Virus record (IMG/VR): IMGVR_UViG_3300047311_000244
Span: 1 to 36,941 of that record
Direction: 5' to 3' (one strand)
Source of the DNA: a virus
DNA: 36,941 nt
Notes under the pieces: generated by a model
Seen by the model: the letters and a program-made list of their open reading frames with translations, nothing else
Database searches by the model: none
What the model was told of the DNA's origin: nothing
In this document: positions 647-35,855 of the stretch, one piece after another
Layout: every line of letters begins with the position of its first letter
Numbering within the stretch: position 1 is the stretch's first letter
Made by a program: the position numbers and the translations under genes

Positions 647-662
647 GGGGAGGTAGACCATC

Positions 663-1683: not shown

Positions 1684-1685
1684 CC

Positions 1686-2990: not shown

Positions 2991-2993
2991 CCG

Positions 2994-3647: not shown

Positions 3648-3988
3648 TCCTGCCTCTGTCGTTCGCCACGCAGACCATCACCCGGCTACGCGGCACCGAG
3701 GACACCGACGGCCTCGGCAACACGGTGCTCGACTGGACGGCGCCCGACGAGCTCGACCTCACCGGCTGTTCCGTGCAGCCCGTCGCCGCCCCCGAGACCG
3801 TCGACGGCCGCTCACGCGACGCCGTAGGCCGCCGGTGGCTCGTCATCGCCCCGCCGGGCGCCGACATCGGCGCGCTCGACCGCGCACGGTTCAGCGGCCG
3901 CGTCTACGACGTCGACGGCGAGCCGCTCGCGTACTCCACCGGCGTCCTAGATCACGTCGAGCTCTATCTCGTGGACGTGGCCGGATGA
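3644..3988 (+). CDS. Head-tail stopper (head closure) protein
   Basis: This 114-aa, beta-rich protein starts at an ATG overlapping the adaptor stop (ATGA). Segments such as TITRLRGTEDTDGLGNTVLDW and the C-terminal VYDVDGEPLAYSTGVLDHVELYLVDV fit the small beta-barrel stopper family (SPP1 gp16/HK97 gp7-like), which closes the DNA channel after packaging. Assignment rests on gene order, size and the ligand-ring-like C-terminus. Confidence 0.65.
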   Translation: MILPLSFATQTITRLRGTEDTDGLGNTVLDWTAPDELDLTGCSVQPVAAPETVDGRSRDAVGRRWLVIAPPGADIGALDRARFSGRVYDVDGEPLAYSTGVLDHVELYLVDVAG

Positions 3989-4311
3989 CCTGGCAGACTG
4001 GCGAAATCCGCATCGAGCTCAACCGCGAGGGCATCCGGGCGCTCTTGCTGTCCGACGGCGTGGCCGTCGACATCGAGCAGCGCGCCGACCGGGTGGCCGA
4101 GGCCGCGAACCGGCGGTACGAACAAATCGACGTCGGCGCGCGCGACGCCGGCCAAACCGTGCCCGACTCGCCGGCCCGCGTAAAAGCCAAGGTCATCATG
4201 GGCAAGGGCAAGAATCGGTCACGCGCGCGCGTCGTCGCCGAGCACCCGGCCGCACGCGCCATCGAGGCGCACCACCGCGTTCTAGGACAGTCGACGGACG
4301 CCGCCCGATGA
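3985..4311 (+). CDS. Neck / tail completion protein (HK97 gp10-like)
   Basis: This 108-aa protein starts at an ATG overlapping the previous stop by 4 nt. It has an N-terminal helix typical of HK97-gp10-like minor proteins (NREGIRALLLSDGVAVDIEQRADRVAEAANRR) followed by basic beta strands (RVKAKVIMGKGKNRSRARVV) and a C-terminal helix. It lies between stopper and terminator in the standard siphovirus order. It would act at the head-tail joint. Confidence 0.65.
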   Translation: MTWQTGEIRIELNREGIRALLLSDGVAVDIEQRADRVAEAANRRYEQIDVGARDAGQTVPDSPARVKAKVIMGKGKNRSRARVVAEHPAARAIEAHHRVLGQSTDAAR

Positions 4312-4754
4312 CCGAGCTCGTAATCGGCGCACCCGCCGAAAAGACCATGGTCCGCATGCTCACCGACGCGCTCGCCGGCCTCGACCCCGGCACGTACCCG
4401 TTCATCGTCGGCGTCAAGGTCGGCACCAAGTACCCGCCGGGTAACCTGCCGGCCAAGTTCGTCCGGGTGCGACGCTCGGGCGGCGTGCGCGTCGGCGTCG
4501 CCGAGACGGCGCCCCGCATCGACTACCAAATTTGGTATTTCTCCGACAGCAAGGACGACGACGAGAACGCCGCCAAGCTCGGCGAGCTCGTGCTCGGCCT
4601 CGTCACACAGTCTCGCGGCCTCGTCGTCGCGGGGGTCCGGATCGGCCAATCTACCGAGTTCATCGGCCTCGGACGGTTCGAGGACCCAATCAATCCGGCG
4701 CGTGAGATCATTCTTTTCACGGTCGAGACACGTCTACGCGCCAGCGGCGCCTAG
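4308..4754 (+). CDS. Tail terminator protein
   Basis: This 148-aa protein starts at an ATG coupled to the previous stop. It has alternating alpha/beta structure with VRMLTDALAGLDPGTYPFIVGVKVGTKYP near the N-terminus and a final strand (REIILFTVETRLRA). Size, fold pattern and its place directly before the tail tube gene match the lambda gpU-like/gp17-like terminator that caps the tube and joins the head. Confidence comes mainly from gene order. Confidence 0.65.
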   Translation: MTELVIGAPAEKTMVRMLTDALAGLDPGTYPFIVGVKVGTKYPPGNLPAKFVRVRRSGGVRVGVAETAPRIDYQIWYFSDSKDDDENAAKLGELVLGLVTQSRGLVVAGVRIGQSTEFIGLGRFEDPINPAREIILFTVETRLRASGA

Positions 4755-4771
4755 CAGGGAAGGGACACAGC

Positions 4772-5335
4772 GTGAGCACTTCATCCGCAAACGTGAATGT
4801 CGCCGTGACGGGCGCCGTTTATGGAACGGCGAACGGCGACGCGCCGACGCCGCCGACGACGGCAATCAGCACGCTCGATGTGCTGTTCGCCGACCTCGGT
4901 TACATCTCGGACAACGGCATCACCGAGGCGTACAACGACACGACGACCGAGATCAAGGCGTGGCAGGGCGGCACGATCGTCCGCACGGTCATCTCGGCGA
5001 GCAAGGCCACGATCAAGTTCATGATGATCGAGAACAAGCGCGAGGCGGCCGAGCTGTTCCACAAGGGCAGCGTCGTCGTCTCGGACGGTTCCACCGGCTA
5101 CCGGATGGACGTCATGGTTCCGAGCCCGGACCGCCGCAAGTTCGTGCTCGACATCATCGACGGAAACGACCACCTGCGCATCTACATCGCGGACGGCGAG
5201 GTTTCCAACCGGTCGGACATCACCTACAAGTCGGACACGCAGATCGGCTACGAGGTCGAGATCACCATGTACCCGGTGGCCGGCGTCGTGTGCACCAAGT
5301 TCAGCGATAAGGCGTCGTGGGCGCCGGCCGCATAA
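4772..5335 (+). CDS. Major tail (tube) protein
   Basis: This 187-aa protein starts at a GTG with a strong SD (CAGGGAAGGGAC, 4756-4767). It has the pattern of actinophage tube proteins: an early Ala/Thr-rich arm, then a beta sandwich with DLGYISDNGITEAYNDTT, IKAWQGG and KATIKFMMIEN, and a conserved C-terminal part (VLDIIDGNDHLRIYIADGEV, YEVEITMYP). It would polymerise around the tape measure. The chaperone genes and tape measure follow directly. Confidence 0.85.
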   Translation: MSTSSANVNVAVTGAVYGTANGDAPTPPTTAISTLDVLFADLGYISDNGITEAYNDTTTEIKAWQGGTIVRTVISASKATIKFMMIENKREAAELFHKGSVVVSDGSTGYRMDVMVPSPDRRKFVLDIIDGNDHLRIYIADGEVSNRSDITYKSDTQIGYEVEITMYPVAGVVCTKFSDKASWAPAA

Positions 5336-5380
5336 CGGCCTAGCTCGACGCACCAACCACACCCGAAAGGACCATCACCA

Positions 5381-5785
5381 GTGGCTAACACCATCAAGGC
5401 ACGGCCGGCCGCCAAGTCGGCTAAGCCGCGCAAGCTCGCCGCCGTCGGGAGCTCACGAGAGGCGTTCAACCTCGACGAGCTCACCGGCGGCGACGGTTTC
5501 ACGTTCGTACTCGGCGGCGAGGATTACAAGCTGTGCGACCTCGGCGACATCGACCTCAACGTCGTTGCCGTGGCCGACACCGGCAACCTCGAGGGCATCC
5601 TCGTCGCCATCCGGTACGGCCTCGGCGACGCGCCCGACGACGAGCTCGAGGAGCGCGGCGAGGAAGTCGACGAGGCCGCGCGTGAGCGTTGGCTTTCGTT
5701 CAGCAAGGGTCGCAAGTCGCTACGCCAGGCCAACGCGCTTTTCGAGGAATGGGTACGTATCTCGGGGCTGCGCCAGGGGGAATAG
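5381..5785 (+). CDS. Tail assembly chaperone, short form (G-like)
   Basis: This 134-aa protein starts at a GTG; the SD is GAAAGGA (5365-5371). It is charged and acidic in the second half (DELEERGEEVDEAARERW) and ends RISGLRQGE. Such proteins bind the tape measure during tail assembly and are not kept in the virion. The position between tube and tape measure genes and the overlapping second frame are diagnostic. The stop lies just after a G-run that allows a -1 shift. Confidence 0.8.
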   Translation: MANTIKARPAAKSAKPRKLAAVGSSREAFNLDELTGGDGFTFVLGGEDYKLCDLGDIDLNVVAVADTGNLEGILVAIRYGLGDAPDDELEERGEEVDEAARERWLSFSKGRKSLRQANALFEEWVRISGLRQGE

Positions 5786-6267
5786 CCGGCGTCGTCGCCG
5801 AGCTACGTGACCACGGCGACGCCATACAAGCCGACCTCTTGCGAGCCGGCTGGCACGTACGAGATTTGACGCTAGCCGAGCTCGTGAGCTGGATACGCAA
5901 CCCGCACAGGGACTCGGCCCACGCACGACAGCTACTCGCGGACGGATTTGAGTGGACGCTCGAGACGCACCTACTTGCCGGACTGCACGACCGGCTCGCA
6001 GAGGCGAATTGGCAGCGCGCCGGCAAGGGTCCGAGGCCGACGCCGCTACCGCGGCCCGGCGTGCAGCACGACGACGGTAAGACGCGTTTCGGTGGCTCGG
6101 CCGGCCGTTCGCCGGCTGAGATGATGGCAGAGTTGGCGCGCATGGCAGGCCGCGCGCCGATGCACGAACGGGCGCCGGGTTTGCCGGCGCCAGGGTACGA
6201 GCCCGGCCAAGACGCTCGAGAGCAGGCAGCTCGAGACATTGAACGGGCCATACCCCCGACAGAGTGA
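5381..6267 (+). CDS. Tail assembly chaperone, frameshifted long form (GT-like)
   Basis: A -1 shift near 5776-5782 would join the first 133 residues of the short form to a second frame that stays open to 6267, giving about 295 aa. The second part begins GIAGVVAELRDHGDAIQADLL and includes LTLAELVSWIRNP, typical of T-domains of actinophage chaperones, then ends in a Gly/Pro/Arg-rich tail. The second frame has no convincing SD or start of its own, and the tape measure follows, so expression by frameshifting is the simplest reading. Confidence 0.8.
5776..5782 (+). other. Probable -1 programmed frameshift site (G-GGG-GAA)
   Basis: The heptamer GGGGGAA lies at codons GGG-GAA immediately before the TAG at 5783-5785. 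Slipping back one base leaves GGG paired with GGG and moves the next codon to GGA, entering the frame that runs to 6267. The heptamer is not the lambda type (GGGAAAG), but G-run slip sites just before the stop are common in phage chaperone genes. Confidence 0.6.
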
Positions 6268-6282
6268 CGGGAGGTCGGCGGC

Positions 6283-9222
6283 GTGGCCATCGAGGTCGGT
6301 ACCGCGTACGTCACGATCATCCCGAGCGCCAAGGGGTTCGCCAGCAAGCTACAGAGCGAGATTGCTGGCGAGCTCCGGCGTTCCATCGGCCCGGCCGTCG
6401 AGGGCGAGGGCGACCGAGCCGGCAAGTCGTTCGGGCAGCGATTCAAGGGCGGCGCCCGTTCCGCGCTCGGCGGACTCGGCAGCATCCTCAAGACCGGCCT
6501 CACCGCGGCAACCGTCGGCATCGGCGTCGGCCTCGCCGCCCTCACCGGGTTCGGCCTCAAAACCGCGGCGTCCCTCGAGCAAACGCAAATTTCGTTCAAC
6601 TCGCTCACCGGCTCGGTTGCCAAGGGTCAAGCGCAGTTCAAAGAGCTGCAAAAGTTCGCCGCCGTAACGCCGTTCCAATTTACCGACCTCACGACCACCG
6701 CCGGCCGTTTCGACGCCATGGCCAAGAGCATTGGCCAGACACAACAGCAGCTAGTGCCGTTCCTCACCACGATCGGCAATGTCGTCTCGGTCACCGGTGG
6801 CGGCGCGCAAAACCTCGACTCGGTATCGCTGGCGCTCTCGCAGATCACGAGCCGCGGCAAGCTCACGCTCGACAACATCAACCAGCTCAGTAACGCCCTA
6901 CCCGGATTCTCGGGTGTCGCCGCCCTCGCCTCGGTCCGCGGCGAGACGCAAGCGAAGGTAATGGACGAGATTTCGGCCGGCACCATCAACGCGAGCGACG
7001 GCGTAAATCAGCTGCTCAAGGGCATGCAGCAGTTCCCCGGCGCCGCGGGTGCGATGGAAAAGCAGTCGCTCACCCTGCTCGGCGTTTTCTCCACATTCAA
7101 GGACACCATTGGACAGGCGCTATCGGGTGCGTTCCAAGGCGTCATTCCGGACATCAAGTCGGCGCTCACCGAGGTAACGCCGATCATCGGGCAGGCCGTG
7201 AGCGTGCTGGCGCCGGCCATCGGCGGCGTCCTGTCTTCCGTGCTGCCTCTCATCGGCTCGCTCGTCGCCGGTATCACCCCGATTTTGACGCCGCTACTCA
7301 ACTCGCTCGGGCCGGCGCTCAAGACGCTCGCCCCCGCCATCGCGCCCCTCGGCGCCGCCCTCGGCTCGATAGCCGGCGCCCTCGCCCCGGTGCTGCCCGT
7401 CATCGCCGAGCTCATCACCGCGCTCGTCCAAGGGCTGTCCCCGATCATCGCCGCGCTCGCTCCGGTGATCTCTGGCCTCGTCAACGGGCTCACGCTCGCG
7501 CTAACGCCGTTGCTGCCGATCATCGTGCAAGTTGGCACCGTGCTCGCCACGAGCCTCGCCCCGGTGCTACAGGTCATCGGCAATATTTTCTTGCAGCTCG
7601 GCGGCCCCATCGGCGCCATCGTCGCCGCGCTCGGCTCGGCGCTCGCCCCGATCCTGCAAGTGCTGGCGCCGATCGTCGGCACGCTGCTCGAGGCACTCGC
7701 CCCGCTCATCCCGGCGCTCTTGCAGCTGCTTCCGCCGGTTGTCGACATCGTGGTTGCCCTCACGCCGCTTATCGACGTCATCGCGCAACTACTCGTCATC
7801 GCCGTCGACATCATCGCGCCCGTCATCAAGCTCGCGGCCGTGCTGGTCTCGCTGCTCGCGTCCAAGGCGATCGCGCCGCTGCTCGAGCTCATCGCCAAGG
7901 CGCTCACGTCGATCCTGTCGCCACTAACCAAGATCATTGGGCCGCTCGAGCACTTCGGCAAGTTCATCCAAAGCATCAATTGGGCGTCCGTCGGTAAGGC
8001 CATCCTCAACGGCCTCGGCACGGCTTTCTCGGCCATCGGCAAGTTTTTCGCCGGCATCGGTAAGAGCATCGGCGATTTCTTTAGCAAGCTGCCCGGCCGC
8101 ATCGGCGGTTTCTTTGTCGGCATCGGCAAGAGCATCGGCGGATTTTTCGCCCGGCTCGGCACCGACATTCTCGACTTCCTCAAGGCGCTCCCCGGCCGAG
8201 CGCTCGCCGCCCTCAAGGCGCTCCCCGGCGTACTCATCGGCGCCCTCAAGGCCGCCGGCCTCGGCATGCTCAAGGCGCTCGGGTTCGCCATCGGCCTCAT
8301 CATCGGCCTACTCGTCGGCCTGCCGATCAAGGCCGCGCAGCTCATCCAAAGCCTTTTTGACAAGGCCGTCGCGCTGTTCAAAAAGGGCGTCGGGCTCGTC
8401 GTCACCGAGGCCAAGGCGCTCCCCGGCCAAGTTGTCGCCCTCGTAACCTCGCTGCGCGATAAGGCCATTGCCGTCGTCACAAACCTCGTGACGCGGTTCG
8501 TGACCGGCATCTCGAATCTCTGGACGAACGTCAAGACCAAGTTCACGACCGGCGTCAGCAACGCCGTTGCGCTCGCCAAGGCGCTACCCGGCCGCGTCGT
8601 CGCCGCCATCGCCGCCCTCGGCTCGCTCATCGGTGGCAAGGTGGCGGCCGCGTGGTCGTATCTCAAGACCAAGTTCACGACCGGCGTCTCAAACGCCGTC
8701 GCCATCGCCAAGGGACTACCCGGCAAGGTTGTCGACGCTTTCTCATCGCTGCCCGGCAAGATCACAACATTCGTGAACGGGTTCATATCCGACGTCAAGC
8801 AGCTCGGAAGCGACATCATCAACGGCCTCGTCAACGGCATCAAGGACAACGCCGGCAAGGTGCTCGACGCCATCGTTGGCGCCGTAAAAGACGGATGGAA
8901 CGCCGCCAAGAAATTCCTTCACATCGGCTCGCCCAGCAAGCTATACGCCGAGATGGGCATGTTTACCATCGAGGGCTACGCCGTCGGTATCGAGCAGCAC
9001 GCGCCGAGGGCGCACGCCGCCCTCGTGCGCGCGCTACAGCCACCGACGGCCGCCACCCTAGGCATCGGGCGCGCCGGCACGTCGGCGCTCGCTACGGCCG
9101 CCGTGAGGGCAGTGTCGAACAACTGGACGATCAACGCCGCCGGCACCACAATCGGCGTGACCGAGCTCGCCGCGATCACGGCCCGCCACGACGCCCTACA
9201 ACGCGCGGACAGGAGTAACTGA
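6283..9222 (+). CDS. Tape measure protein
   Basis: This 979-aa protein is by far the longest in the window. It starts at a GTG with SD GGGAGG (6269-6274). The N-terminal part holds the tape-measure domain (SLEQTQISFNSLTGSVAKGQ; FAAVTPFQFTDL; LTLDNINQLSNALPGF). A very hydrophobic centre (about residues 300-560) has many LAPVL/LTPLL/IAPL repeats. The later part has KALPG and TKFTTGVSNAV repeats about 43 residues apart, and the end has the usual LHIGSPSKLYAEMG motif. It sets tail length and is ejected at infection. Using the rule of about 0.15 nm per residue, the tail would be near 150 nm (estimate). Confidence 0.95.
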   Translation: MAIEVGTAYVTIIPSAKGFASKLQSEIAGELRRSIGPAVEGEGDRAGKSFGQRFKGGARSALGGLGSILKTGLTAATVGIGVGLAALTGFGLKTAASLEQTQISFNSLTGSVAKGQAQFKELQKFAAVTPFQFTDLTTTAGRFDAMAKSIGQTQQQLVPFLTTIGNVVSVTGGGAQNLDSVSLALSQITSRGKLTLDNINQLSNALPGFSGVAALASVRGETQAKVMDEISAGTINASDGVNQLLKGMQQFPGAAGAMEKQSLTLLGVFSTFKDTIGQALSGAFQGVIPDIKSALTEVTPIIGQAVSVLAPAIGGVLSSVLPLIGSLVAGITPILTPLLNSLGPALKTLAPAIAPLGAALGSIAGALAPVLPVIAELITALVQGLSPIIAALAPVISGLVNGLTLALTPLLPIIVQVGTVLATSLAPVLQVIGNIFLQLGGPIGAIVAALGSALAPILQVLAPIVGTLLEALAPLIPALLQLLPPVVDIVVALTPLIDVIAQLLVIAVDIIAPVIKLAAVLVSLLASKAIAPLLELIAKALTSILSPLTKIIGPLEHFGKFIQSINWASVGKAILNGLGTAFSAIGKFFAGIGKSIGDFFSKLPGRIGGFFVGIGKSIGGFFARLGTDILDFLKALPGRALAALKALPGVLIGALKAAGLGMLKALGFAIGLIIGLLVGLPIKAAQLIQSLFDKAVALFKKGVGLVVTEAKALPGQVVALVTSLRDKAIAVVTNLVTRFVTGISNLWTNVKTKFTTGVSNAVALAKALPGRVVAAIAALGSLIGGKVAAAWSYLKTKFTTGVSNAVAIAKGLPGKVVDAFSSLPGKITTFVNGFISDVKQLGSDIINGLVNGIKDNAGKVLDAIVGAVKDGWNAAKKFLHIGSPSKLYAEMGMFTIEGYAVGIEQHAPRAHAALVRALQPPTAATLGIGRAGTSALATAAVRAVSNNWTINAAGTTIGVTELAAITARHDALQRADRSN

Positions 9223-9223
9223 C

Positions 9224-10150
9224 ATGCCCGTACGCGCAGGTTCCGGCGGCACCATCGTCGACGTCCGGCCACCCGGCCGCACGTTTGAGTACGCCTATGC
9301 CGGTTGGATCGACCCGACCGGCCGCGAGTGGTCGCTCGTCGACGCCGACCAGGGCTATTTCCTCGCGGCCGGCGTCACCGGCCTCGGCTCGCAACCGATC
9401 ACCCTGTCGACGTCGCCGCGGCCCCGTGGCGGCGCCGGCATCAACTCGGCCCGCTACGAACCGCGCATCGTCACGCTCCCCATCGCCGTCGAGGGCGTCG
9501 ACCAAGACACGTTTCTAGCGCCGTGGCGCGACGTCGAGGACGCGTTTACCCGCACCACCGAGGAAGGGCTCGGAACGCTGCGCATCGTCCGGCCGGACGG
9601 CAGCGAACGCCGCATCGACGGCACCTATTACGCCGGATGGGACAACGGGCAGGGCGACGACTGGTCAAACGACCTCGTGGCCGTCCAGCTGTTTTGCCCC
9701 CGCGGCTATTGGTACGACCCGGTGCCCGTGCGCGTCGTCCGCGAGTCGACCTCGGGCGGCTCATTCTTCGCCCCGTACCCGCGCGTCTCGTCCGGGCGCA
9801 CCCTCGGCAACTCGACGCTCGTCAACGCCGGCCAACTACCGACCTCCGCGGACTGGACGATTGACGGCCCCATGACCGGCATCACGGCCACCATCGTCCG
9901 ACCGGACGGCACCACCGCGGCGTTCACAATCACGCACACCCTCACCTCGGGCCAGTCGGTACGGATCACCTCGGACCCGCCGCGCATCCTCGACGACGCC
10001 GACTTGTCGCTACTCGACAAGCTCACGCTGCCCGGCTCGACGTTGTGGGGCGTTCCGCGCGGAACATCGGCGATTGACTTTGCCGTGTCCGGCTCGGGCG
10101 CAGACACCAAGGTCACGCTCGAGTTCGTCAAGCGCTACAAGCAGGCGTGA
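9224..10150 (+). CDS. Distal tail protein (Dit-like)
   Basis: This 308-aa protein starts 1 nt after the tape measure stop, with SD AGGAG (9211-9215). The N-terminal half is the siphovirus tail-component type (GWIDPTGREWSLVDADQGYF; ARYEPRIVTLPIAVEG; LFCPRGYWYD); the C-terminal half is a beta domain like the galectin-type Dit extension (NAGQLPTSADWTIDGPMTG). It would form the hub ring joining the tube to the baseplate. Position after the tape measure supports this. Confidence 0.8.
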   Translation: MPVRAGSGGTIVDVRPPGRTFEYAYAGWIDPTGREWSLVDADQGYFLAAGVTGLGSQPITLSTSPRPRGGAGINSARYEPRIVTLPIAVEGVDQDTFLAPWRDVEDAFTRTTEEGLGTLRIVRPDGSERRIDGTYYAGWDNGQGDDWSNDLVAVQLFCPRGYWYDPVPVRVVRESTSGGSFFAPYPRVSSGRTLGNSTLVNAGQLPTSADWTIDGPMTGITATIVRPDGTTAAFTITHTLTSGQSVRITSDPPRILDDADLSLLDKLTLPGSTLWGVPRGTSAIDFAVSGSGADTKVTLEFVKRYKQA

Positions 10151-10153
10151 TAG

Positions 10154-11329
10154 ATGAACACCGATTACATCGTCTACTTCACCGGCGCCGACCTCGTACC
10201 CATCGGCAACGTCATCGACTCGTGGACGGCGCTCGACATCGCGCTACGGCTCAACTCCGTCGACACGATGGCCGTGACCGTACCGACGTCGCCGAGCTGG
10301 ACCGACCTCGCCCAGCCCGGCAACCGGCTCGAGGTTTTGCGCGACGACGGAACCGGCTGGACGTACCTCACCGGCGGCCCCATCGAACGACCCGGTGACC
10401 AAGACTGGAGTGCGGACGGACAGAACGCCGACCCCGGCACCATGGTCATCTACGCTGGCGACGACCGGGCCGCGCTCGCCGGCCGGCTCACCTACCCGAC
10501 GCCGGCCAACGACAGCGAACACCAAACCGTCACCGCGCGCCGCACGTTCACCACCACCAACGCCAAGACGATCATGCGGACGCTCGTCAACGAAAACGCC
10601 GGCCCCGGCGCCCTACTGAACCGGCGCGTGCCCGGCCTCGCCCTCGGCAGCTCGGCGGCCGCCGGCACCACGATCACCTACTCGTCACGGTTCGGGCTAC
10701 TCACCGACGACCTACGCGCCGTCGCCGCGGCCGGTGGCGGACTCATCTACCGCATCGACCGGTCAACCGGCGTCCTACTGTTCGAGGTCGAGGCGCCGAC
10801 CGACCGTAGCGGCCTCATCCGCTACTCAAAGGCAATCGGCAACCTGCGCGCGTACAGCTTCCGCCACCAGGCGCCGACGTTCACCGTGGCCATCGTCGGC
10901 GGCGACGGCACCGGCACCGGCCGCACCATCGTCGAGGTTGAGAACACGGCCGCGCTCGCCGCCGGCTGGCCGCGCATCGAATCGTTCGTAAGCAACGAAT
11001 CGAACGACGTCACCGAGCTCACCAACGCCGGCCTCGACGCCCTCGCCCAAGCCGCCGAACAAGGATCGATCAGCGTCACCGCGATCGACAACGCCGACCA
11101 GCGTTTCGGCCGTGACTACGGCCTCGGCGACGTCGTAACCGTCGAAATCGATGGGGCCGGCGCCCTCGTCGCACCCGTCACCGCGGTAAACATCGCCGTA
11201 CGTACCGACGGGCAAGACCAAGGTGAGACGATTAGCCCGCAGATTGGCGGCGACCCGATCACCGACTCGAGCACGCTCCGCAAGTTGCGCGACCTCGAGC
11301 GACGTCTAGGAAGGAAAGAGCGTGGCTGA
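10154..11329 (+). CDS. Tail hub protein, ReqiPepy6 Gp37-like / Tal-like
   Basis: This 391-aa protein begins just after the Dit stop. It shows features of the Siphovirus ReqiPepy6 Gp37-like family: an N-terminal strand region with WTALDIALRLNSVDTMAVTV, RPGDQDW, and a later module (SNESNDVTELTNAGLDALAQ; DYGLGDVVTVEIDG; ISPQIGGDP). The family corresponds to the gp27/Tal-like tail hub. The C-terminus ends in a charged helix (LRKLRDLERRLGRKERG). The next GTG overlaps by 8 nt. Confidence 0.8.
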   Translation: MNTDYIVYFTGADLVPIGNVIDSWTALDIALRLNSVDTMAVTVPTSPSWTDLAQPGNRLEVLRDDGTGWTYLTGGPIERPGDQDWSADGQNADPGTMVIYAGDDRAALAGRLTYPTPANDSEHQTVTARRTFTTTNAKTIMRTLVNENAGPGALLNRRVPGLALGSSAAAGTTITYSSRFGLLTDDLRAVAAAGGGLIYRIDRSTGVLLFEVEAPTDRSGLIRYSKAIGNLRAYSFRHQAPTFTVAIVGGDGTGTGRTIVEVENTAALAAGWPRIESFVSNESNDVTELTNAGLDALAQAAEQGSISVTAIDNADQRFGRDYGLGDVVTVEIDGAGALVAPVTAVNIAVRTDGQDQGETISPQIGGDPITDSSTLRKLRDLERRLGRKERG

Positions 11330-12311
11330 GGACTCCTACCCCTCTGGCGGCCGTGCGTCGGGTGTCCTCATCGACGCCGAGACCGAGGCACTGTGGATGG
11401 CCTACGTGCCCGACGGCATCATTGGCACGCCGGCCGACCCGTACCCCGTGTTCTGCTCGGGCGACGCCAGCCGCGGCGTCCGCTTCCGCGCACACGCACC
11501 CGTCATGTTCCGCGGCATCCGTTGGGAAGCCGACGCCGATGAGATCCTTTCGGCGGCCGCCAACCCGGCATCGCAGGCACGGCTAGACCTCGCGTGCCTC
11601 GAGATGGACCACGCCGCCGACAACGCCGTACGGGCCAAGCTCGTCACCGGCACGGCCGGCTCGGCGAGCGGCCCGACACCACTGACCGAGGCGCCCGGCG
11701 GAACCGGCAAGGTGCAATTCCCCCTCGGCTGGATTCAGGTACCGCCGGGCGCCGTCTCAATGAGCAGCTCGGCCGTCCAACGCCGCGGCGTATGGCTCGG
11801 CACCGACGGCCGGCTCATCTCGTCCACCACGTCGGTACGGCCCGCAGCGCTCGCCGGCCGGCTCATCACCGAATACGAGTCGGGTGACCTACTGCTCGGC
11901 AACGGCGTCTCGTGGGCAACGGTCGCCGGTGACACCGGCCCCGTTCCGATCGTCACCGGCAACGCCAACGGCTGCCCGGACTGGAATGTTCCGAGCTCGG
12001 GCTACGGTGCGCAGTGCCGGCGCAAGAATGGGCTCGTGACGTTCGTCCTCGAGGTTCAGCGTGGCGGCGACGGCTCGCGGCCCGGCGGCACCCTCGCCGC
12101 CAACACCAACGCGTTCGTCGGCAAGGTGCCGGCCGGCATGGAACCACCGGCGGCGACGTACCGAGCCGGCGTGCCCATCTACGGGTTCATCGGGAACACG
12201 ATGCTTCGCGGCGCCGTCCGCTCTGACGGCAAGGTCGAGATTCGGGACTACTCGGCCACGATCCCGAACGGCACCAACCTCACTTTCGAGTCCGCTAGTT
12301 GGCAGGTGTAG
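11322..12311 (+). CDS. Minor tail protein
   Basis: This 329-aa protein starts at a GTG with SD AGGAAAG (11309-11315). It is beta-rich with a segment LDLACLEMDHAADNAVRAKLVTG and a C-terminal domain (GLVTFVLEVQRGGDG...; PIYGFIGNTMLRGAV) resembling receptor-binding or baseplate beta-sandwich domains. Located between the hub and a tail glycosidase, it is likely part of the baseplate. No enzymatic motif was seen. Confidence 0.65.
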   Translation: MAEDSYPSGGRASGVLIDAETEALWMAYVPDGIIGTPADPYPVFCSGDASRGVRFRAHAPVMFRGIRWEADADEILSAAANPASQARLDLACLEMDHAADNAVRAKLVTGTAGSASGPTPLTEAPGGTGKVQFPLGWIQVPPGAVSMSSSAVQRRGVWLGTDGRLISSTTSVRPAALAGRLITEYESGDLLLGNGVSWATVAGDTGPVPIVTGNANGCPDWNVPSSGYGAQCRRKNGLVTFVLEVQRGGDGSRPGGTLAANTNAFVGKVPAGMEPPAATYRAGVPIYGFIGNTMLRGAVRSDGKVEIRDYSATIPNGTNLTFESASWQV

Positions 12312-27867: not shown

Positions 27868-28293
27868 ATGCACACGCTCATCGCGTTCTACGAGGCGCTC
27901 GCCGCGGCCGTCGTTGGACACATCGCGCTCGTCCTCGCCGCCATCGGCGTCGCCATCCTGCTCGCCGCCGTGTACCGGCTCGGCCGCTACGTCCAGCACG
28001 GCGCCGACCTCGCCGGCATGAACGCCGCATACGGCAACGGCTACGACGACGGCCTCGCCACGCCGCGGCCCACCAACCGCATCAAGCTCGAGGGTGCGCA
28101 GGTTCGCGGCACCGTCGGCGGCGTCGAGGTGCGCGGAATCGTGCCGGCCGACATGTTCGCCTACGACGGCGAGTTTGGCGGCATGTCGCTCGCCCCGGTG
28201 GCGTTGACGCCGTGGCGTGACGTGCCGGCCAAGCTCAAGGCCGACGACGCCGTACGCGAGTGGCGTGCCGAGCGCGGCCTCGTCGCCGACTAG
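27868..28293 (+). CDS. One-TM protein, unknown
   Basis: This 141-aa protein starts at an ATG with strong SD GGAGGAA (27857-27863). Residues about 16-38 are a membrane segment (GHIALVLAAIGVAILLAAVY); the rest is soluble with a beta-like part (RIKLEGAQVRGTVGGVEVRG) and an acidic helix at the end. It is the first gene behind the element at 27797. No family recognised. Confidence 0.65.
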   Translation: MHTLIAFYEALAAAVVGHIALVLAAIGVAILLAAVYRLGRYVQHGADLAGMNAAYGNGYDDGLATPRPTNRIKLEGAQVRGTVGGVEVRGIVPADMFAYDGEFGGMSLAPVALTPWRDVPAKLKADDAVREWRAERGLVAD

Positions 28294-28297
28294 TACT

Positions 28298-28376
28298 CGG
28301 GTGGGCATGGCGCTACGGATTGGCCGTCTATCGATTGGCCGGCCGCCGTACCGGGTTCGAGTCCCGGCCATCCACG
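28298..28376 (+). tRNA. tRNA-like element (degenerate tRNA or attachment-site core)
   Basis: A perfect T-arm is present: CCGGG-TTCGAGT-CCCGG at 28351-28367. CCATCC (28368-28373) can pair with GGGTGG (28299-28304) as an acceptor stem with one G-T pair. A possible anticodon arm GCCGT-CTATCGA-TTGGC (28323-28339) has one mismatch. No normal D-arm is visible and the variable loop would be 11 nt. So it may be a decayed or unusual tRNA, or the 3' end of a host tRNA kept as an attachment core. No integrase is seen in the window. Confidence 0.35.
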
Positions 28377-28433
28377 CCAACCGAGCAACACGCTCACACG
28401 GCAGCCCAAGAAGAAGGAACGAGGGAAAGCCAA

Positions 28434-29360
28434 GTGCAGCCCTACCCGCAACCGCAGTACCCGCAGCCCGGACCCGGCCCGCAGTACGGGCCGCCCCCGC
28501 CGCAGTACCAGCCCGGCCAGCCGGCGCCACAGTACGCGCCCCCGCAGCCGGCACCCGTCGCCCCGCAGCCCGGCACCGGCCGGTGGGCGGCACCCGAGGC
28601 CGCCCCCGACGGCGACCGCGTGACGGCCACCAGCCTCGACAACCACCTACTCATCGTGGTCGCCGACTCGCTGCACCCGTCATTCTTCGCCGGCCGGCCC
28701 GCCACGTACGACGCGCAGGGCACCGTGAAAGAGGCCGAAAAGCCGCCGTCGGACGCCATCAAGGTCAATGTGGTCGACCTCGACGACCGTGACCAGTACG
28801 GCCAGCCCGGCAAGACTTACATCGGCGTCATGTGGGGTGGCAAGGTGCTCGCCAAGGGACTCGCACGGCAGCTCGGCGTGCCCGTCCTCGCCCGGATGGG
28901 CAAGGGGCAGGCGCGCGGCGCGAACGCTGCGCCGGCCGTGCTGCTCGACCAGTCGGGCGACCCGTCGGCGTGTGCTCGGGCTGACGAGTTCGTGAACCGG
29001 CGGCCCAACTGGCAGGCCGAGCCGTCGACCGTGCCGGCCGCCCCCGTGGCGCCCCCGGCGCCGCTGGTGAACCCGTACCAGCCGCAGCCGTACCCGCAGG
29101 GCCAGCCGGCCCCGTACGGCCAGCCGCAGCCGGCCTACGCGCCGCAGGGCATGCCCCCGCAGTACGGTCAACCGGCGTTCGCGCCGCAGCCCGTCTACGG
29201 ACAGCAGCCGGCGCCGCAGTACGCCCAGCAGCCGGCCCCGGCCGGCTACCCGCCGCAGGGCGCCTACCAGCCCGGCACGGCCGGCCCCGGCTCGCCCGAG
29301 GCCGTCGCCGCGTACGGCAACGTCGCCCAGCAGCAGGCGCCGCAGTACTACCAGCAGTAG
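28434..29360 (+). CDS. Pro/Gln/Tyr-rich protein with central globular domain
   Basis: This 308-aa protein starts at a GTG with SD AGGGAAAG (28422-28429). Residues 1-50 and about 200-308 are low-complexity P/Q/Y/G/A (PQYPQPGPGPQYGPPPPQY-like units). A globular middle (about 60-195) reads LDNHLLIVVADSL, DAIKVNVVDLDD, TYIGVMWGGKVLAKGL and VPVLARMGKGQARG, a pattern I associate with actinophage single-strand-DNA-binding-like proteins; this is a weak assignment. The tails recall SSB-type flexible tails. It lies upstream of the replication genes. Confidence 0.6.
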   Translation: MQPYPQPQYPQPGPGPQYGPPPPQYQPGQPAPQYAPPQPAPVAPQPGTGRWAAPEAAPDGDRVTATSLDNHLLIVVADSLHPSFFAGRPATYDAQGTVKEAEKPPSDAIKVNVVDLDDRDQYGQPGKTYIGVMWGGKVLAKGLARQLGVPVLARMGKGQARGANAAPAVLLDQSGDPSACARADEFVNRRPNWQAEPSTVPAAPVAPPAPLVNPYQPQPYPQGQPAPYGQPQPAYAPQGMPPQYGQPAFAPQPVYGQQPAPQYAQQPAPAGYPPQGAYQPGTAGPGSPEAVAAYGNVAQQQAPQYYQQ

Positions 29361-29425: not shown

Positions 29426-29509
29426 TTGAACGCCATGAAAGCCAAGGTGCTAATGCACCTGATCTACGTGAGTGCCGCTGTCGGCCTCACGATTTGGTTC
29501 ACCCGTTAG
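29426..29509 (+). CDS. Very small membrane peptide
   Basis: This 27-aa peptide starts at a TTG 5 nt behind GGAG (29417-29420); an ATG at 29435 would give 24 aa but is far from the SD. It has a basic start and one hydrophobic helix (VLMHLIYVSAAVGLTIWF). It is preceded by an intergenic hairpin and followed by a gene with its own SD. Small single-TM peptides often escape annotation; expression is unproven. Confidence 0.45.
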   Translation: MNAMKAKVLMHLIYVSAAVGLTIWFTR

Positions 29510-29527: not shown

Positions 29528-31540
29528 ATGACCGACCCCAAGCGGCGCGACCCCGTGCCCGCCGACTACGACCCGGCGCACGCCGCGGCCGTCATCGAAA
29601 CCCTCGACCAGCACGGCGCCCGACTCGACGGCGCCCACCGCGTACTCAGTGACCACGAGGGCAAGCTCAACGGCCTCGACGAGCGGCTCGACGCGATGGA
29701 CGGCCGCCACCTCACCGCGGCCGAGCGTTTGCTCGAGCACCGGACCGAGCTCGACGAGCACGGCAAGCGGTTCGACCGGGTGGCCGAGGACTTGCGGCGA
29801 GACGTCGCCAGCCTCGACCACCACGACAAACGGCTCACCAAGCTCGCCGGCCGCGTCGACAACGCCAACCGGATCATCACCGAAACCCGCGGCGAGCTCA
29901 CCGGCCACCGTGCCGAGGTCACCAAACTCCGCGAGCTCGTCGTCGCCATCGACGATCACCAGACGGAACACTGTGGCAGCTTCCTCACCGCCACCAACCA
30001 CGTCAACGAGCTCACCGCCACCGTCAACGACCTCACGAACCACGTTCACCACATCGGCGACCGTCTCGACGCAGCCGAGGCGTACCGGCAACTCGGCGAC
30101 GACGAGGCCACGATCAGCCGCACCCGGTTCGCCAACGTGTCCGAGCTCGCCGAGACGATCTACGCCCGCGTACGCGCCGCCGACGCGTGGATGATGCAGG
30201 CGGTCGACCCGGCGCCCGTGGACGTCGCCAGCCATCACGCCCGGATCGCCGCCGTCCTCGCTACGGTGCACGCCACGCAGTGTGTCGACGACCGGCGGCG
30301 TGAGGATGAGTTGCGCGCGGCCGCCGACTCGCTCGACGAGTGGCGCGTCGAGATCGAGGCGTACGGCAAGCACCGGCGCCACCCCGGCGGCTACCGGTTC
30401 GAGCAGTGCCCGGCCGAGCCGTGCGTCAACCTGACTGAGCGCCGCCGGGCAGCCTACGAGCAGTCGCGCGGTACCGTGCCGACCCGCTCGACGTTCACCG
30501 ACGACGAGCTCGCCACCGTCCTCGACGTCCACCGCACCCGCCACGCCAAGAGCACGCACCGGGCGCTCGCCGAGTGCACCCTCGCCCCGTGCGTCGAGGT
30601 CGACCAGTTGAGCCGTGAGGCGTTCGCGCAGCGCGTCAGCCGGCAGCCCGGCGCCGGCTACGTCGCCCGGCCCGCCGGCAGCGCGTTCGCCACCGAGGCC
30701 GCCGACGCCATGCAAGCCGCCAGCAACCCGCCCAACGCCGCCGCGCTCGCCGAGGTCGCCGACGCGCACCGGGTGCACGGCATGCCCGGTGCCGCCGGCC
30801 ACCGCCAGGAATTCGCCGACTGCACGAACGGGCATTGCGCCAGCGTCACGCGCGCCATGCGCTACATCTACGCCAACTCGACGATCGGCCTGCGCTTCGC
30901 GATCATCAGTCACGCGATGAACGATCACGGCCTGTCGTTTTGGGCGTGCGAGGTTGAGCCGTGCTGTTCGGCCGACGCCGGCAACCGTGAGCAGTACGCC
31001 GGCACCGTCCGCATCGACCAGGACGAGGCGCGCGTCGAGATGCGCGTCGGTCCGGCCGTCGAGTTCCACGGCGGCCCCGGCATGGCCGTCCACATCGCCG
31101 CCGACGGTTCCACCGTCCACCAGGGCAAGGCCGCCGAGTGCACGGCGTCGGGCTGCATGCAGGCGCGCGCCGGCCGCGACGACTCGATGGCCGACATGGA
31201 AGCGGCCGCCATCGAGCAGGCTTGGACGGCGCACGCCGGCCATCACCGGCAGGGCGAACGGCCGTACGTCGGCCTCGACTCGTTTGAGGCGTGCATCATC
31301 GCCCCGTGCCGCGACATCGACGTGATGGCCCGTGTGGCGTACGCCGGTGAGCACTACGTCGCCGCAGCCGCCAACGACCTCGAGGCCGCGTGGAACATCC
31401 ACGGCGAGCACAAGCCGACCGACGGCCCGAGCTCGTTTGAGTCGTGCGACCTCATGCCGTGCTACGGCCTGTCGGTGGCCGATCGTGAGACGTTCGCCAG
31501 TGAGCGCGGCGAGCCCAACGACCCGCACCGGGAAGGCTGA
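29528..31540 (+). CDS. Coiled-coil protein with seven C-x4-C (probable zinc) modules
   Basis: This 670-aa protein starts at an ATG with SD GGAAGGA (29516-29522). Residues about 20-190 are a long charged coiled coil. From residue 285 a module repeats: one or two His, then often F-x2, then C-x4-C, then Arg/Tyr. Cys pairs lie at 294/299, 350/355, 432/437, 474/479, 538/543, 589/594 and 640/645, commonly with PC as the second Cys. His precedes each pair (for example 285, 339/344, 425, 467, 531, 572/573, 624/627). Each module could bind zinc. I know no family with this layout. It precedes four small genes and the replicative helicase. Confidence 0.75.
   Translation: MTDPKRRDPVPADYDPAHAAAVIETLDQHGARLDGAHRVLSDHEGKLNGLDERLDAMDGRHLTAAERLLEHRTELDEHGKRFDRVAEDLRRDVASLDHHDKRLTKLAGRVDNANRIITETRGELTGHRAEVTKLRELVVAIDDHQTEHCGSFLTATNHVNELTATVNDLTNHVHHIGDRLDAAEAYRQLGDDEATISRTRFANVSELAETIYARVRAADAWMMQAVDPAPVDVASHHARIAAVLATVHATQCVDDRRREDELRAAADSLDEWRVEIEAYGKHRRHPGGYRFEQCPAEPCVNLTERRRAAYEQSRGTVPTRSTFTDDELATVLDVHRTRHAKSTHRALAECTLAPCVEVDQLSREAFAQRVSRQPGAGYVARPAGSAFATEAADAMQAASNPPNAAALAEVADAHRVHGMPGAAGHRQEFADCTNGHCASVTRAMRYIYANSTIGLRFAIISHAMNDHGLSFWACEVEPCCSADAGNREQYAGTVRIDQDEARVEMRVGPAVEFHGGPGMAVHIAADGSTVHQGKAAECTASGCMQARAGRDDSMADMEAAAIEQAWTAHAGHHRQGERPYVGLDSFEACIIAPCRDIDVMARVAYAGEHYVAAAANDLEAAWNIHGEHKPTDGPSSFESCDLMPCYGLSVADRETFASERGEPNDPHREG
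30377..31475 (+). repeat. Seven degenerate H/C-x4-C coding modules
   Basis: The modules lie inside the 670-aa gene with spacings of 56, 82, 42, 64, 51 and 51 residues between successive first Cys. Similarity is at protein level (His, Phe, C-x4-C, Arg) and not visible as a DNA repeat, so the duplication is old or under selection for the metal-binding residues. Confidence 0.6.
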
Positions 31541-31542
31541 CC

Positions 31543-31821
31543 GTGACGACGCTCGAGATCACGGTCAAGTTCGACCGCATCGGCCGCTACCGGCCGGCCG
31601 ACATCGTGCTCGACGTGCCGGCCGGCCTCGACCCCGAGGCACTCGCCGGCCGCATCGAGGATGGCGTCGTGGACTACGCCGTTCAGTTCATCGTCTCTAA
31701 CGAGTTCAACGTCGACCTCGTGGACGGCGACAGCAACGGCGGCCGCGTGCTCATCGGTGGCGGCCGGTTCGGTGGCGGTACCTGGCAAGTCACTGCGAGC
31801 AAAGAGGATGGCACCCCATGA
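31543..31821 (+). CDS. Small beta-rich protein, unknown
   Basis: This 92-aa protein starts at a GTG with SD GGAAGG (31530-31535) inside the end of the 670-aa gene. It alternates strands (LEITVKFDRIGRYRPADIVLDV; YAVQFIVSNEFNVDLVDG; GGTWQVTASKED). No Cys. The next gene overlaps by 4 nt, so a translational unit runs from 29528 to 32784. Function unknown. Confidence 0.6.
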   Translation: MTTLEITVKFDRIGRYRPADIVLDVPAGLDPEALAGRIEDGVVDYAVQFIVSNEFNVDLVDGDSNGGRVLIGGGRFGGGTWQVTASKEDGTP

Positions 31822-32171
31822 CCGAGGGCAAGACCGTCGGCAACTTCAATGGCGACGTACCCGTGGCCAAGATCGTCGTCACGTTCGTCAACTCCGAGCG
31901 CGCCCCCATCAACATCGAGATTCCCGAGCTACTCACCGGCGGCATCGACACCGTGAAAATCTCGATGGCCATCATGTCCCTCGTCACCGGCGCCACCGCG
32001 GCCCCCGTAGGCCAGCACGGCACCGGCGTCGTGTACTTCCCCGAGGGACGCCGGCCGGCGTACGAGCGGTTCGTGTGGGCGCGCGCCAGCGAGCTCGACC
32101 CCGAGCCGCCGTCGACCGGCCTCAAGGACACCGTGTCGTTCCACCCCGACGACCTCGAGGGCGGCGAGTGA
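31818..32171 (+). CDS. Small beta-rich protein, unknown
   Basis: This 117-aa protein starts at an ATG overlapping the previous stop. It has strands (VAKIVVTFVNSERAPINIEIPELL), a Met/Ala-rich segment (VKISMAIMSLVTGATAAP) that is moderately hydrophobic, and an acidic end. It shares one base with the next start. No family recognised. Confidence 0.6.
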   Translation: MTEGKTVGNFNGDVPVAKIVVTFVNSERAPINIEIPELLTGGIDTVKISMAIMSLVTGATAAPVGQHGTGVVYFPEGRRPAYERFVWARASELDPEPPSTGLKDTVSFHPDDLEGGE

Positions 32172-32527
32172 TGGCCGTCGACCCGCTCGACCGCAAGCAG
32201 CCCGAAACCGATGAGGAGTTTGCCACCCGCCGGTTCGTCGAGCGCGTCAGCGCTCGCGGCGCCGGCTGGACGCGAGCCACGCTCACCAAGGCGCTCACTG
32301 ACGCATACGCGCCCATCCCCGCCGAGCCGGCCCACGACACCGTGCTCACCATCGGTGGGCATCTGTTCGCGTTCGTGACGTTCGAGGCGACCGGGTGGAA
32401 AGAGGCCGGTTGGGGCATGGTCGGACATAACAAGCTCATGCAGTGGCGCGAGCTCGTCGAGTTCGCCCGCACCCAAGAGGCCGAGATCACCGTCGTGTGC
32501 ATCGTCCCGGCCGAGCCGCCGGCATGA
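32171..32527 (+). CDS. Small alpha/beta protein, unknown
   Basis: This 118-aa protein starts at an ATG sharing one base with the previous stop. It has an acidic N-terminal helix (ETDEEFATRRFVERVSARG), a strand TVLTIGGHLFAFVTFEA and a final helix-strand (LVEFARTQEAEITVVCIVP). The next gene overlaps by 4 nt. No family recognised. Confidence 0.6.
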   Translation: MAVDPLDRKQPETDEEFATRRFVERVSARGAGWTRATLTKALTDAYAPIPAEPAHDTVLTIGGHLFAFVTFEATGWKEAGWGMVGHNKLMQWRELVEFARTQEAEITVVCIVPAEPPA

Positions 32528-32784
32528 GCGCCACCGTCGTACACGTCGTGTTCGCGGACACGAGCATGGGGCCGCTCGTGCTACCCGGCGCCCTCGGCGC
32601 CGTCCTCGGCCGGCCGCTATCCCTCGCCGAGCATGTCGAGGTCGAGCTCGCCCTACGCGTACCCGGCTACATGGACGTCGAGTGCGGCCGGGCCGCCCCG
32701 ACCGAGACGGGCGTCGGCACCTTGCGCTCGGGCGCCAAGGGCGACAACGTGCACCCGTTCCGATGGGCGCGCATCACGCACTAG
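32524..32784 (+). CDS. Small protein, unknown
   Basis: This 86-aa protein starts at an ATG overlapping the previous stop. It has hydrophobic strands (TVVHVVFADTSMGPLVLPG) and an acidic helix (SLAEHVEVELALRVPGYM). It closes the coupled group that began at 29528; a 12-bp hairpin follows. Function unknown. Confidence 0.55.
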   Translation: MSATVVHVVFADTSMGPLVLPGALGAVLGRPLSLAEHVEVELALRVPGYMDVECGRAAPTETGVGTLRSGAKGDNVHPFRWARITH

Positions 32785-32801
32785 CTCGACCCGCGCCACC
32801 A

Positions 32802-32835
32802 CGCGGCCCGACCGTCACCACGAGGTCGGGCCGCG
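32802..32835 (+). terminator. Intergenic GC hairpin with 12-bp stem
   Basis: Arms CGCGGCCCGACC (32802-32813) and GGTCGGGCCGCG (32824-32835) pair perfectly around a 10-nt loop. No T-run follows. It separates the small coupled genes from the helicase-primase gene. Confidence 0.6.
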
Positions 32836-32866
32836 CCCGTCCAACGCCCGCCATCGACGCCGAGGA

Positions 32867-35188
32867 ATGAGCCGCCCAGTGACACCCGAAATCGAAGCCG
32901 CACACGCATGGCTCGCGGCCGGCTGCACACCCGTCCCCATCCGTCTCGACGGCACCAAGGCACCCCTCGTCAACTGGCGAGAGCTCACCGGCGGCGTACC
33001 GCCCGGCCGTGACCCGTTCCTCGACTTCACAGGCCACGAGGGCGTCGCCATCGTGTGCGGCGCCGCGAGCGCGAATCTCGAAATGCTCGAAATCGAAGGC
33101 ACCGGAATCCGCGAGGGCATCGACGTCCAGCTCGCCGCGCTCGCCGACGCCGCCGGAATCCGTGAGCTGCTCGACCGGGTGGCGGCCGGCTACTACGAGA
33201 TGTCGCCCAAAGGCGGCGTGCACATGTTCTACCGCGTCAGCGACGAGCCGGTGCCCGGCAACATCAAACTCGCCGAACGGCCCGCCCGCGACGACGAGCT
33301 CACCCCGGCCGAGGCCGAACGCAAAGCCAAAGGGCTCACGCCCAAGCGCACCCTCATCGAAACGCGAGGGCAGGGCGGCTACGTCATCGTCGCCCCCACC
33401 CGCGCGGAAGCCTCGGACCCGGCCGGCCCCTACGGTCAACAACCGTGGTCCTACCGGTGGGGGTCGCCGGCCACCATCGCGACCATCACCGCGGCCGAAC
33501 GGCGCGAGCTACACGCCCTCTGTCGTTCCATGCACGTCGCGCCGCCCGAACGTACCGGCGCCGGCGTTTCTGATCGCCAACCGTCAATACCCGGCATTGA
33601 GGGCGAGCGGCCCGGCGACGTGTTCGCCCGAACAACCACATGGGCCGCCATCCTCGAGCCGCACGGCTGGCGACAGCTCTACGTCCACGGCGGCAAAACC
33701 TATTGGTGCCGGCCCGGCAAAACCTCCGGGGTATCCGCCACCACCACCGACGACGGCCCCGGCGACCCCGGCGGACTGTACGTCTTCTCGAGCTCCACCT
33801 CGTTCAACCCGGAGGAGCTCTACACCAAGTTCGGCGCCATGGCCCACCTCGAGCACGGCGGCGACATGCGCGCCGCGGGCGGCGCGCTCGGCGGCCCCCC
33901 ACCCCTCTCCAGCGACTTTTTCGGCACGTGGCGCGCGCCACAACCGCCCACCGCGGCTGCCGTGAGCAACGCCAGCGGCCCGCCGGCCGGCAACCCTGAC
34001 AACCCGTGGCAGGCCGCCCGAGACCGGCTGTACGGCCGAATGCGCACCACCGCCACCATCGACGACCGGACGCTACCCCGCTACATCGTCGACGGATGGC
34101 TCAAGTACGACGAAATCGCGCAGATCATCGGCGCATCCGGCTCAATGAAATCCTTTGCAGCCATCGACCTCGCCGCAGCCATCGCCACCGGCATCCCATG
34201 GCACGGCGCCACCGTCGAACGCCACGGCGTCATGTTCGTCGCCGCCGAGGGCGGCTCGGGCATCCGCAAACGGCTACGCGCATGGGAGAAACACCACGAA
34301 CGCCGAGCCGACGGAATGCTCATCCTCGACGAGCCCGTACAGATAGCCACCCGACTCGGCCGCGGCCTACAACCGTCAATCGAATGGCAAGCACTCGCGC
34401 AAATCGTCTACGAGACGAAAACGCGAGTCCTATTCGTCGACACCCAAGCACGCAGCACCGTCGGAATCAACGAAAACGACAACAGCGAAATGGGCGTCGT
34501 GTTCGATGCCGTCGACCAGCTGCGCCGCGCGGTCCGCAATCAACCCGACGGCCACGAGGTCACCGTCGTACTCATCCACCACACCGGAAAGGCCGGCGCC
34601 GAGGGGCGTGGCGCATCGGCCATGTACGCCGCCGTAAACACCGAATTGCGCGTGGCCAAGAAAAAGGTTGGCCACGAAACCGGCATCACCGTCAGCAACT
34701 CCAAAAACAAAGACGACGAGGAAGCCGCGGCCGTCTACCTCACCGCGCAAATCGTCAGCTTGGAACCGGCCGACCTCACACACGACGGCGGCGTGCGCCA
34801 GAGCGACGAGGCCACCTCGAGCGTCGTCCTCATGCCGTCCCGCTGGCGGCCGCCGCGCGACGACCTCTCGGGCGGCCGCACGGCCGACGTGCCCGAGGCA
34901 TCGCAGTCCGTCGAGGCCGTGCTCGAGGCGTTCGACCGCATCGGCGGCGACGGCCGACAGAGCTCGACCAAGGGCGAGATTCGCGCCGTGCTGGCCAGCA
35001 TGCCCAAGACGACGTTCTACGACTCGTGGAACGCTGCCAGGGCGCGCCACCTCATCGCCAACGGCGCGCCAGGAAAGGGCGACTGGCGGCTCACGGACAC
35101 CGGCCGAACCCTTGTGGATCATGCCCCGGAATCCGTGACCGGAGTCGCGTCAACGGCCGTCCGGAATTCCGGAGATTCCGGGTCATGA
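32867..35188 (+). CDS. Prim-pol / replicative helicase fusion
   Basis: This 773-aa protein combines two domains. The N-terminal primase-polymerase domain (about 8-215) shows AAHAWLAAGCTPVPI, a LEMLEIEG segment at 71-78 where the metal ligands are expected, and SPKGGVHMFYR at 113-123. The C-terminal RecA/RepA-like helicase (about 400-640) has Walker A GASGSMKS (422-429), Walker B VLFVDT (521-526) and VVLIHHTGK (567-575). A winged-helix-like end (about 680-755) may bind DNA. It would unwind and prime replication. The ATG 32867 lacks a spaced SD; GTG 32879 is an alternative behind GAGGA. Confidence 0.85.
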   Translation: MSRPVTPEIEAAHAWLAAGCTPVPIRLDGTKAPLVNWRELTGGVPPGRDPFLDFTGHEGVAIVCGAASANLEMLEIEGTGIREGIDVQLAALADAAGIRELLDRVAAGYYEMSPKGGVHMFYRVSDEPVPGNIKLAERPARDDELTPAEAERKAKGLTPKRTLIETRGQGGYVIVAPTRAEASDPAGPYGQQPWSYRWGSPATIATITAAERRELHALCRSMHVAPPERTGAGVSDRQPSIPGIEGERPGDVFARTTTWAAILEPHGWRQLYVHGGKTYWCRPGKTSGVSATTTDDGPGDPGGLYVFSSSTSFNPEELYTKFGAMAHLEHGGDMRAAGGALGGPPPLSSDFFGTWRAPQPPTAAAVSNASGPPAGNPDNPWQAARDRLYGRMRTTATIDDRTLPRYIVDGWLKYDEIAQIIGASGSMKSFAAIDLAAAIATGIPWHGATVERHGVMFVAAEGGSGIRKRLRAWEKHHERRADGMLILDEPVQIATRLGRGLQPSIEWQALAQIVYETKTRVLFVDTQARSTVGINENDNSEMGVVFDAVDQLRRAVRNQPDGHEVTVVLIHHTGKAGAEGRGASAMYAAVNTELRVAKKKVGHETGITVSNSKNKDDEEAAAVYLTAQIVSLEPADLTHDGGVRQSDEATSSVVLMPSRWRPPRDDLSGGRTADVPEASQSVEAVLEAFDRIGGDGRQSSTKGEIRAVLASMPKTTFYDSWNAARARHLIANGAPGKGDWRLTDTGRTLVDHAPESVTGVASTAVRNSGDSGS

Positions 35189-35342: not shown

Positions 35343-35855
35343 ATGACGGCCATGGAGACGCCCGAGCCACTTTCCACGCCCATCGCCATCCGCTACGGCG
35401 TGTGGCTCATCGCCGGCACTCTCGTCGCCGACCCGTACCCGTGCCGCTGCACGCCACCCTGCCGGACCAAAGGCGAGCGAACATGCCCATGCATCGGCCG
35501 GACCGACCTCGGCCACGTCCCCCCGTCATGCTGCGCAGCTATCGCCGCCAAGTCGACCGCATGGCGGGCAACCACGCTGACCACCGTGGCGCCCGTTCCT
35601 CGCCGATGGGCAGCGCCGGCCCACCACTGGCACGCGCCGGCCGAGCCGCTCGGCGCCGACATTCGGCGGCCGCCACGCTGGGCGGCGCCCATCACCGAGC
35701 AGCAACACGATTGGGCGTGGCCAATCCGCGTCCTCGAGCCGTGGCAGCGCCAAAGCCGCCATCCTCATCCCGGCGAGGCCGATTGCGACATTTGCGGCGA
35801 GCTCTTGGCCGAGCAGCTCGTCAGGCAGGGATACACAACCCATGTCGGGTGCTGA
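35343..35855 (+). CDS. Cys-rich protein, probable zinc-binding
   Basis: This 170-aa protein starts at an ATG with SD GAGGGG (35330-35335). The N-terminal half has a dense Cys cluster (CRCTPPCRTKGERTCPCIG; SCCA), the C-terminal end DCDICGELL and THVGC. At least two zinc sites are likely. The middle is Trp/Pro/His-rich. It overlaps the next start by 14 nt. Function unknown. Confidence 0.6.
   Translation: MTAMETPEPLSTPIAIRYGVWLIAGTLVADPYPCRCTPPCRTKGERTCPCIGRTDLGHVPPSCCAAIAAKSTAWRATTLTTVAPVPRRWAAPAHHWHAPAEPLGADIRRPPRWAAPITEQQHDWAWPIRVLEPWQRQSRHPHPGEADCDICGELLAEQLVRQGYTTHVGC

Follow-up and report, generated by a model that had tools for sequence, protein, structure and literature searches.

A coiled-coil phage protein with seven putative H2C2-type modules as a candidate new protein family

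Introduction

The locus described here raises the question of what kind of protein is encoded by a 670-aa open reading frame in a DNA stretch of 36,941 nt from an uncultured bacterial virus (called the window in the following). A preliminary description of the sequence had proposed a long coiled coil followed by seven modules, each consisting of a His and a C-x4-C pair, and had named no phage or cellular family with such a layout. Tandem arrays are familiar in eukaryotic zinc-finger proteins, and few such arrays are known in phages.

Gene and genomic setting

The open reading frame at 29528-31540 on the plus strand represents a real gene as judged by its codon bias and a GGAAGGA sequence upstream of its ATG codon, which resembles a ribosome-binding site. 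The GC content at the third codon position amounts to 0.92, compared to 0.69 for the window, and the bias extends along the entire gene. In length, the gene ranks behind those for the tape measure protein (979 aa) and the primase/helicase, which fits its earlier description as one of the longest of the window. It is placed between the genes for an exonuclease and a phrog_870-like protein on one side and that for the primase/helicase on the other, hence before the helicase as previously noted. The four small genes downstream (31543-31821, 31818-32171, 32171-32527 and 32524-32784) either overlap or are almost contiguous, in line with the proposal that the gene leads a group of small coupled genes (31543-32784). 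An identical copy of the protein was detected in record IMGVR 3300046516_000756, which is the one other copy of the whole protein found. The features of the locus are as follows:

29528..31540, plus strand: 670-aa coiled-coil protein with seven putative H2C2-type modules (translation, codon-position GC, ribosome-site-like GGAAGGA)
31543..31821, plus strand: 92-aa gene directly 3' of the 670-aa gene, synteny anchor with the related phage L003 (pairwise z of 6.7 vs. shuffles)
31818..32784, plus strand: three overlapping small genes (31818-32171, 32171-32527, 32524-32784) without an assigned family (ORF list, profile searches)

Several observations were made on the neighbouring genes. Immediately before the 670-aa gene, a possible 24-aa membrane peptide is encoded at 29435-29509 (MKAKVLMHLIYVSAAVGLTIWFTR). 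The phrog_870-like protein (28260-29360) carries a Pro/Gln-rich tail and is 51% identical to its counterpart in L003 and 71% to that in the related locus L041; its gene always adjoins that of the exonuclease, and binding of single-stranded DNA by its product is a guess. The listed start of the open reading frame at 32633-35188 is probably too early, and the alignment with L003 suggests that the primase/helicase starts near 32867 (MSRPVTPEIEAAHAW). A Cys-rich protein of 170 aa (35343-35855; CRCTPPCRTKGERTCPC ... CDICGELL) is 42% identical to the product of an L003 gene and showed no PHROG match.

Coiled coil and repeat modules

The N-terminal third of the protein represents a heptad coiled coil (residues ~16-225), as indicated by a strong heptad periodicity with a power of 15.3 at 3.5 residues and by helices predicted at residues 16-147 and 152-225 with pLDDT values of mostly 58-85. 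The full-length single-sequence AlphaFold model from which the coil can be read has a mean pLDDT of 46 and is useful for this part alone. The long coiled coil postulated ahead of the modules was thus recovered.

The seven C-x4-C pairs are located exactly at the residues claimed before (294/299, 350/355, 432/437, 474/479, 538/543, 589/594 and 640/645). Shuffling the protein 100,000 times yielded a mean of 0.41 and a maximum of 6 such pairs, compared to the 7 observed. An ungapped alignment anchored on the Cys pairs gave the consensus F-x2-C-x3-P-C-x7-R-x2-[YF]-A, with F at -3 and P before the second Cys each present in five of the seven modules, as expected from the F-x2-C-x3-P-C motif described as frequent, while R at +8, Y/F at +11 and A at +12 after the second Cys are each present in six. 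Counted from the first Cys, these columns correspond to F(-3), P(+4), R(+13), Y/F(+16) and A(+17), and their conservation is far above chance. Even with the Cys columns excluded, the BLOSUM62 sum over the core of the modules is 109, whereas 20,000 random anchor sets drawn from the same region and aligned without gaps gave a mean of -326 (sd 58) and never reached 109; the range of columns was set after the modules had been inspected, and the margin is large. Judged by these residue patterns, the seven Cys pairs mark homologous repeats and not cysteines that are spaced alike by themselves. The core identity between modules is 12-38%, indicating that the duplications are old.

The His residues are similarly concentrated: 18 of the 20 present in residues 262-660 precede a Cys pair by no more than 25 residues, usually as H-x2-4-H, and every module contains at least two His and at least two Cys. 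The proposed order of His followed by C-x4-C was therefore retained, but with two His and two Cys per module and not a single His. Spacing between the His residues and from His to Cys is variable (x2 to x8), and the loop is long in modules 5 and 6. Module 5 is degenerate, keeping its Cys and His and lacking the F, the R at +8 and the aromatic residue at +11. The coil and the modules are located as follows, all assignments except the first and the last resting on Cys pairs, module alignment and core score:

29573..30202, plus strand: coiled coil, residues 16-225 (heptad periodicity; predicted helices 16-147 and 152-225)
30317..30469, plus strand: module 1, residues 264-314 (C294/C299)
30491..30637, plus strand: module 2, residues 322-370 (C350/C355)
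30731..30883, plus strand: module 3, residues 402-452 (C432/C437)
30875..31009, plus strand: module 4, residues 450-494 (C474/C479)
31049..31195, plus strand: module 5, residues 508-556 (C538/C543), degenerate
31199..31354, plus strand: module 6, residues 558-609 (C589/C594)
31367..31513, plus strand: module 7, residues 614-662 (C640/C645), the sequence modelled by AlphaFold (module alignment, AlphaFold)

Relatives in other phages

The closest related phage, IMGVR 3300036786_000016 (L003), contains a gene for a 231-aa protein with one module (7625-8320). The protein has a helical-looking N-terminus, and its module reads HQRESH-ATG-FSSCGRWGC-SQFDHGE-R-AE-Y. L003 shares the gene order of the window: exonuclease (50% identical overall) and phrog_870-like protein (51%) are followed by the one-module gene, a small gene and then, as second gene 3' of the one-module gene, a gene related to 31543-31821 of the window, after which come the primase (61% identical over 366 residues) and further shared genes. 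With a profile of the seven window modules, the L003 open reading frame ranked first among 27,223 viral open reading frames at an E value of 0.25, so the link to L003 rests on motif and synteny.

A second probable relative was found in IMGVR 3300032199_000008 and 3300032396_000057 (L214 and L223), which contain a 51-aa gene with the module RHLDERH-NAD-FEVCRRPLC-RLAAAAE-R-TL-YA. The gene overlaps its upstream gene by ATGA and is located near genes for a DnaC-like loader and an endonuclease. This protein is probably a stand-alone relative of the modules, with chance still possible, as its His spacing led to its selection, on visual inspection, among about 30 in-frame matches of the motif scans. 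Directly upstream in L214, an 82-aa Cys/His protein without PHROG match is encoded at 2198-2446 (CYRCVHCDGEYCPVLDIHELHNYDQ). The two Cys in C-x4-C spacing are invariant in all nine modules (the seven of the window and those of L003 and L214/L223), and both relatives likewise have at least two His and two Cys. Together, the L003 and L214/L223 sequences support a module family. No module was found in about 95 other loci whose exonuclease or primase is related, several of these loci being fragments; L041, whose exonuclease is 86% identical, ends immediately short of the module gene. L017 was rejected as a relative, matching the L003 protein outside the module only.

Searches for known families and folds

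Searches against Pfam, PHROGs, NCBIfam, PADLOC and PDB sequences yielded coiled-coil similarity or sub-threshold matches only; those of PADLOC, searched for known anti-phage defence proteins, were weak and confined to residues 23-216 in the coiled coil. Matches to DM, SMC, Rad50, syntaxin and tape-measure proteins were rejected for these reasons. Nothing convincing was obtained by tblastn against phages (whole protein, consensus module, modules 6+7, L003 protein, L214 module) or plasmids (consensus module, L214 module), matches in Vincenzo and skuden at E values of 9-10 lacking a matching Cys/His module, and blastn of the L214 module gave short unrelated matches only. A degenerate DNA motif for the P-C sequence retrieved 22 stretches from viral contigs, with the window's own copy as the only real one, and 30 from genome contigs, none of them convincing. 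Two looser motif scans of the viral contigs returned 6 and 41 stretches, with L214/L223 as the sole plausible addition.

In 297 Actinomycetes genomes, the profile search gave 9 matches at E values of 0.01 or below, where chance would give about 3; in none of the 9 did H-x2-4-H occur together with the Arg and the aromatic residue. A fixed-spacing pattern was absent from 397 genomes of the phylum. Because modules this short and diverged are easily missed, the absence of a cellular homologue from the 297 genomes and the motif scan of the genome collection is to be read with caution. A scan of the genome contigs for the exonuclease gave no relative, and literature searches returned nothing relevant. 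The claim that no phage or cellular family is known is thus consistent with the sequence libraries, the phage and plasmid searches and about 300 actinobacterial genomes, and profile searches with the protein and single modules likewise matched no known repeat family.

The fold of one module (49 aa) was predicted by AlphaFold from an eight-row alignment of the seven window modules and the L003 module, with a pLDDT of 88 and a pTM of 0.69. In this model, which does not include metal, a helix (residues 2-15) ends at H-x2-H and is followed by a loop with F-x2-C-x4-C and a second helix (37-46) bearing the Arg and the aromatic residue. In a Foldseek search with the model, the best E values were 5.1 in PDB and 1.8 in BFVD, neither of which counts as a match. 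The module is accordingly modelled as a confidently predicted small unit without a known fold match in these two collections.

Comparison with known systems

Integrase-type HHCC zinc domains carry two His on a helix, then two Cys, then a helix, and the modules resemble Integrase_Zn and Integrase_H2C2 in this order. However, C-x4-C replaces C-x2-C in all nine modules, the distance from His to Cys is shorter, an integrase domain is missing, and neither family was matched at E values up to 10 by the protein or single modules, nor by Foldseek. Classical C2H2 zinc-finger arrays likewise consist of small tandem modules, each having a Cys pair and a His pair, but are defined by C-x2-4-C before H-x3-5-H and a beta-beta-alpha fold, whereas the order is reversed here (His first, Cys last), the model is helix-loop-helix without a beta hairpin, and Pfam gave no match. 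The similarly Cys/His-rich DM DNA-binding domain (PF00751) matched module 1 weakly, at 15.1 bits compared to a cut-off of 27 and in one of seven modules. SMC/Rad50-type similarity extends over residues 21-277, but SMC_prok_B of NCBIfam scored 28.4 bits against a cut-off of 567, with the coil alone matching. A coil with tandem metal-type modules is a known kind of architecture; the module itself matched nothing in the collections searched.

Discussion

We tentatively favour, at slightly below even confidence, a role of the protein as a multivalent early adaptor or sink for a protein partner, built from a coiled-coil stalk and seven H2C2 modules. The protein would probably oligomerise via its coil. 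In each unit, ordered as helix, H-x2-4-H, loop, F-x2-C-x4-C and helix, two His and two Cys most likely coordinate one zinc. With two or three chains in the coil, a particle would present 14-21 modules and thereby many binding sites, and the array may act on a host or phage protein in the early phase. Oligomerisation, binding of protein rather than nucleic acid, and early expression are all deduced.

A doubtful alternative is an accessory scaffold of replication whose modules would contact phage nucleic acid (DNA or RNA) or provide docking sites for the adjacent primase/helicase and the phrog_870-like protein, organising a replication complex. The gene adjoins that for the primase/helicase both in the window and in L003, and the one-module gene of L214 is near the loader and endonuclease genes. 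However, the absence of a module from the about 95 other loci noted above argues against a core replication part, and the array (residues 263-670, 408 residues) is acidic, with a pI of 5.5, 58 acidic vs. 39 basic residues and 4 Lys. With this composition, a protein partner is more likely than a general affinity for nucleic acids; acidity alone is still compatible with nucleic-acid binding, but positive charge is a less likely basis for it.

Less probable still is that the modules are small helical repeats held together by hydrophobic contacts without metal, with Cys pairs that are free, redox-active or disulfide-bonded. The irregular His spacing and a fold predicted without metal would agree with this, but both Cys are invariant in nine modules, the His are strongly concentrated just upstream, and the N-terminus, inspected by eye, has no evident export signal, which leads one to expect a reducing cytosol. 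Two His at a helix end and two Cys in a loop, retained across all nine modules, together with the lack of such a signal, would point to an H2C2 site for Zn(II) in each module. That the protein is a structural component of the virion or tail with the coil as its basis is very unlikely, since the weak tape-measure and tail-needle matches are restricted to the coil and the recognised head and tail genes (29-12311) are far from this gene, which lies in the replication block.

An accessory early gene for the favoured adaptor or sink would fit the position in the replication block, the expansion from one to seven copies and the absence from most relatives; a host-takeover or anti-defence role is a guess. 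The more specific proposal, held with considerable reserve, is that these small H2C2 metal modules constitute a new class, single in some phages and seven-fold on a stalk here, which would engage a host factor in early infection as a multivalent sink or hub. The protein looks like a candidate new protein family. Such a family would contribute a small unit, probably metal-binding and seen both singly and in tandem, for which the searched family and structure libraries contain no match. At this size, single modules can be expressed and their structures solved, which makes zinc binding and the partner directly testable.
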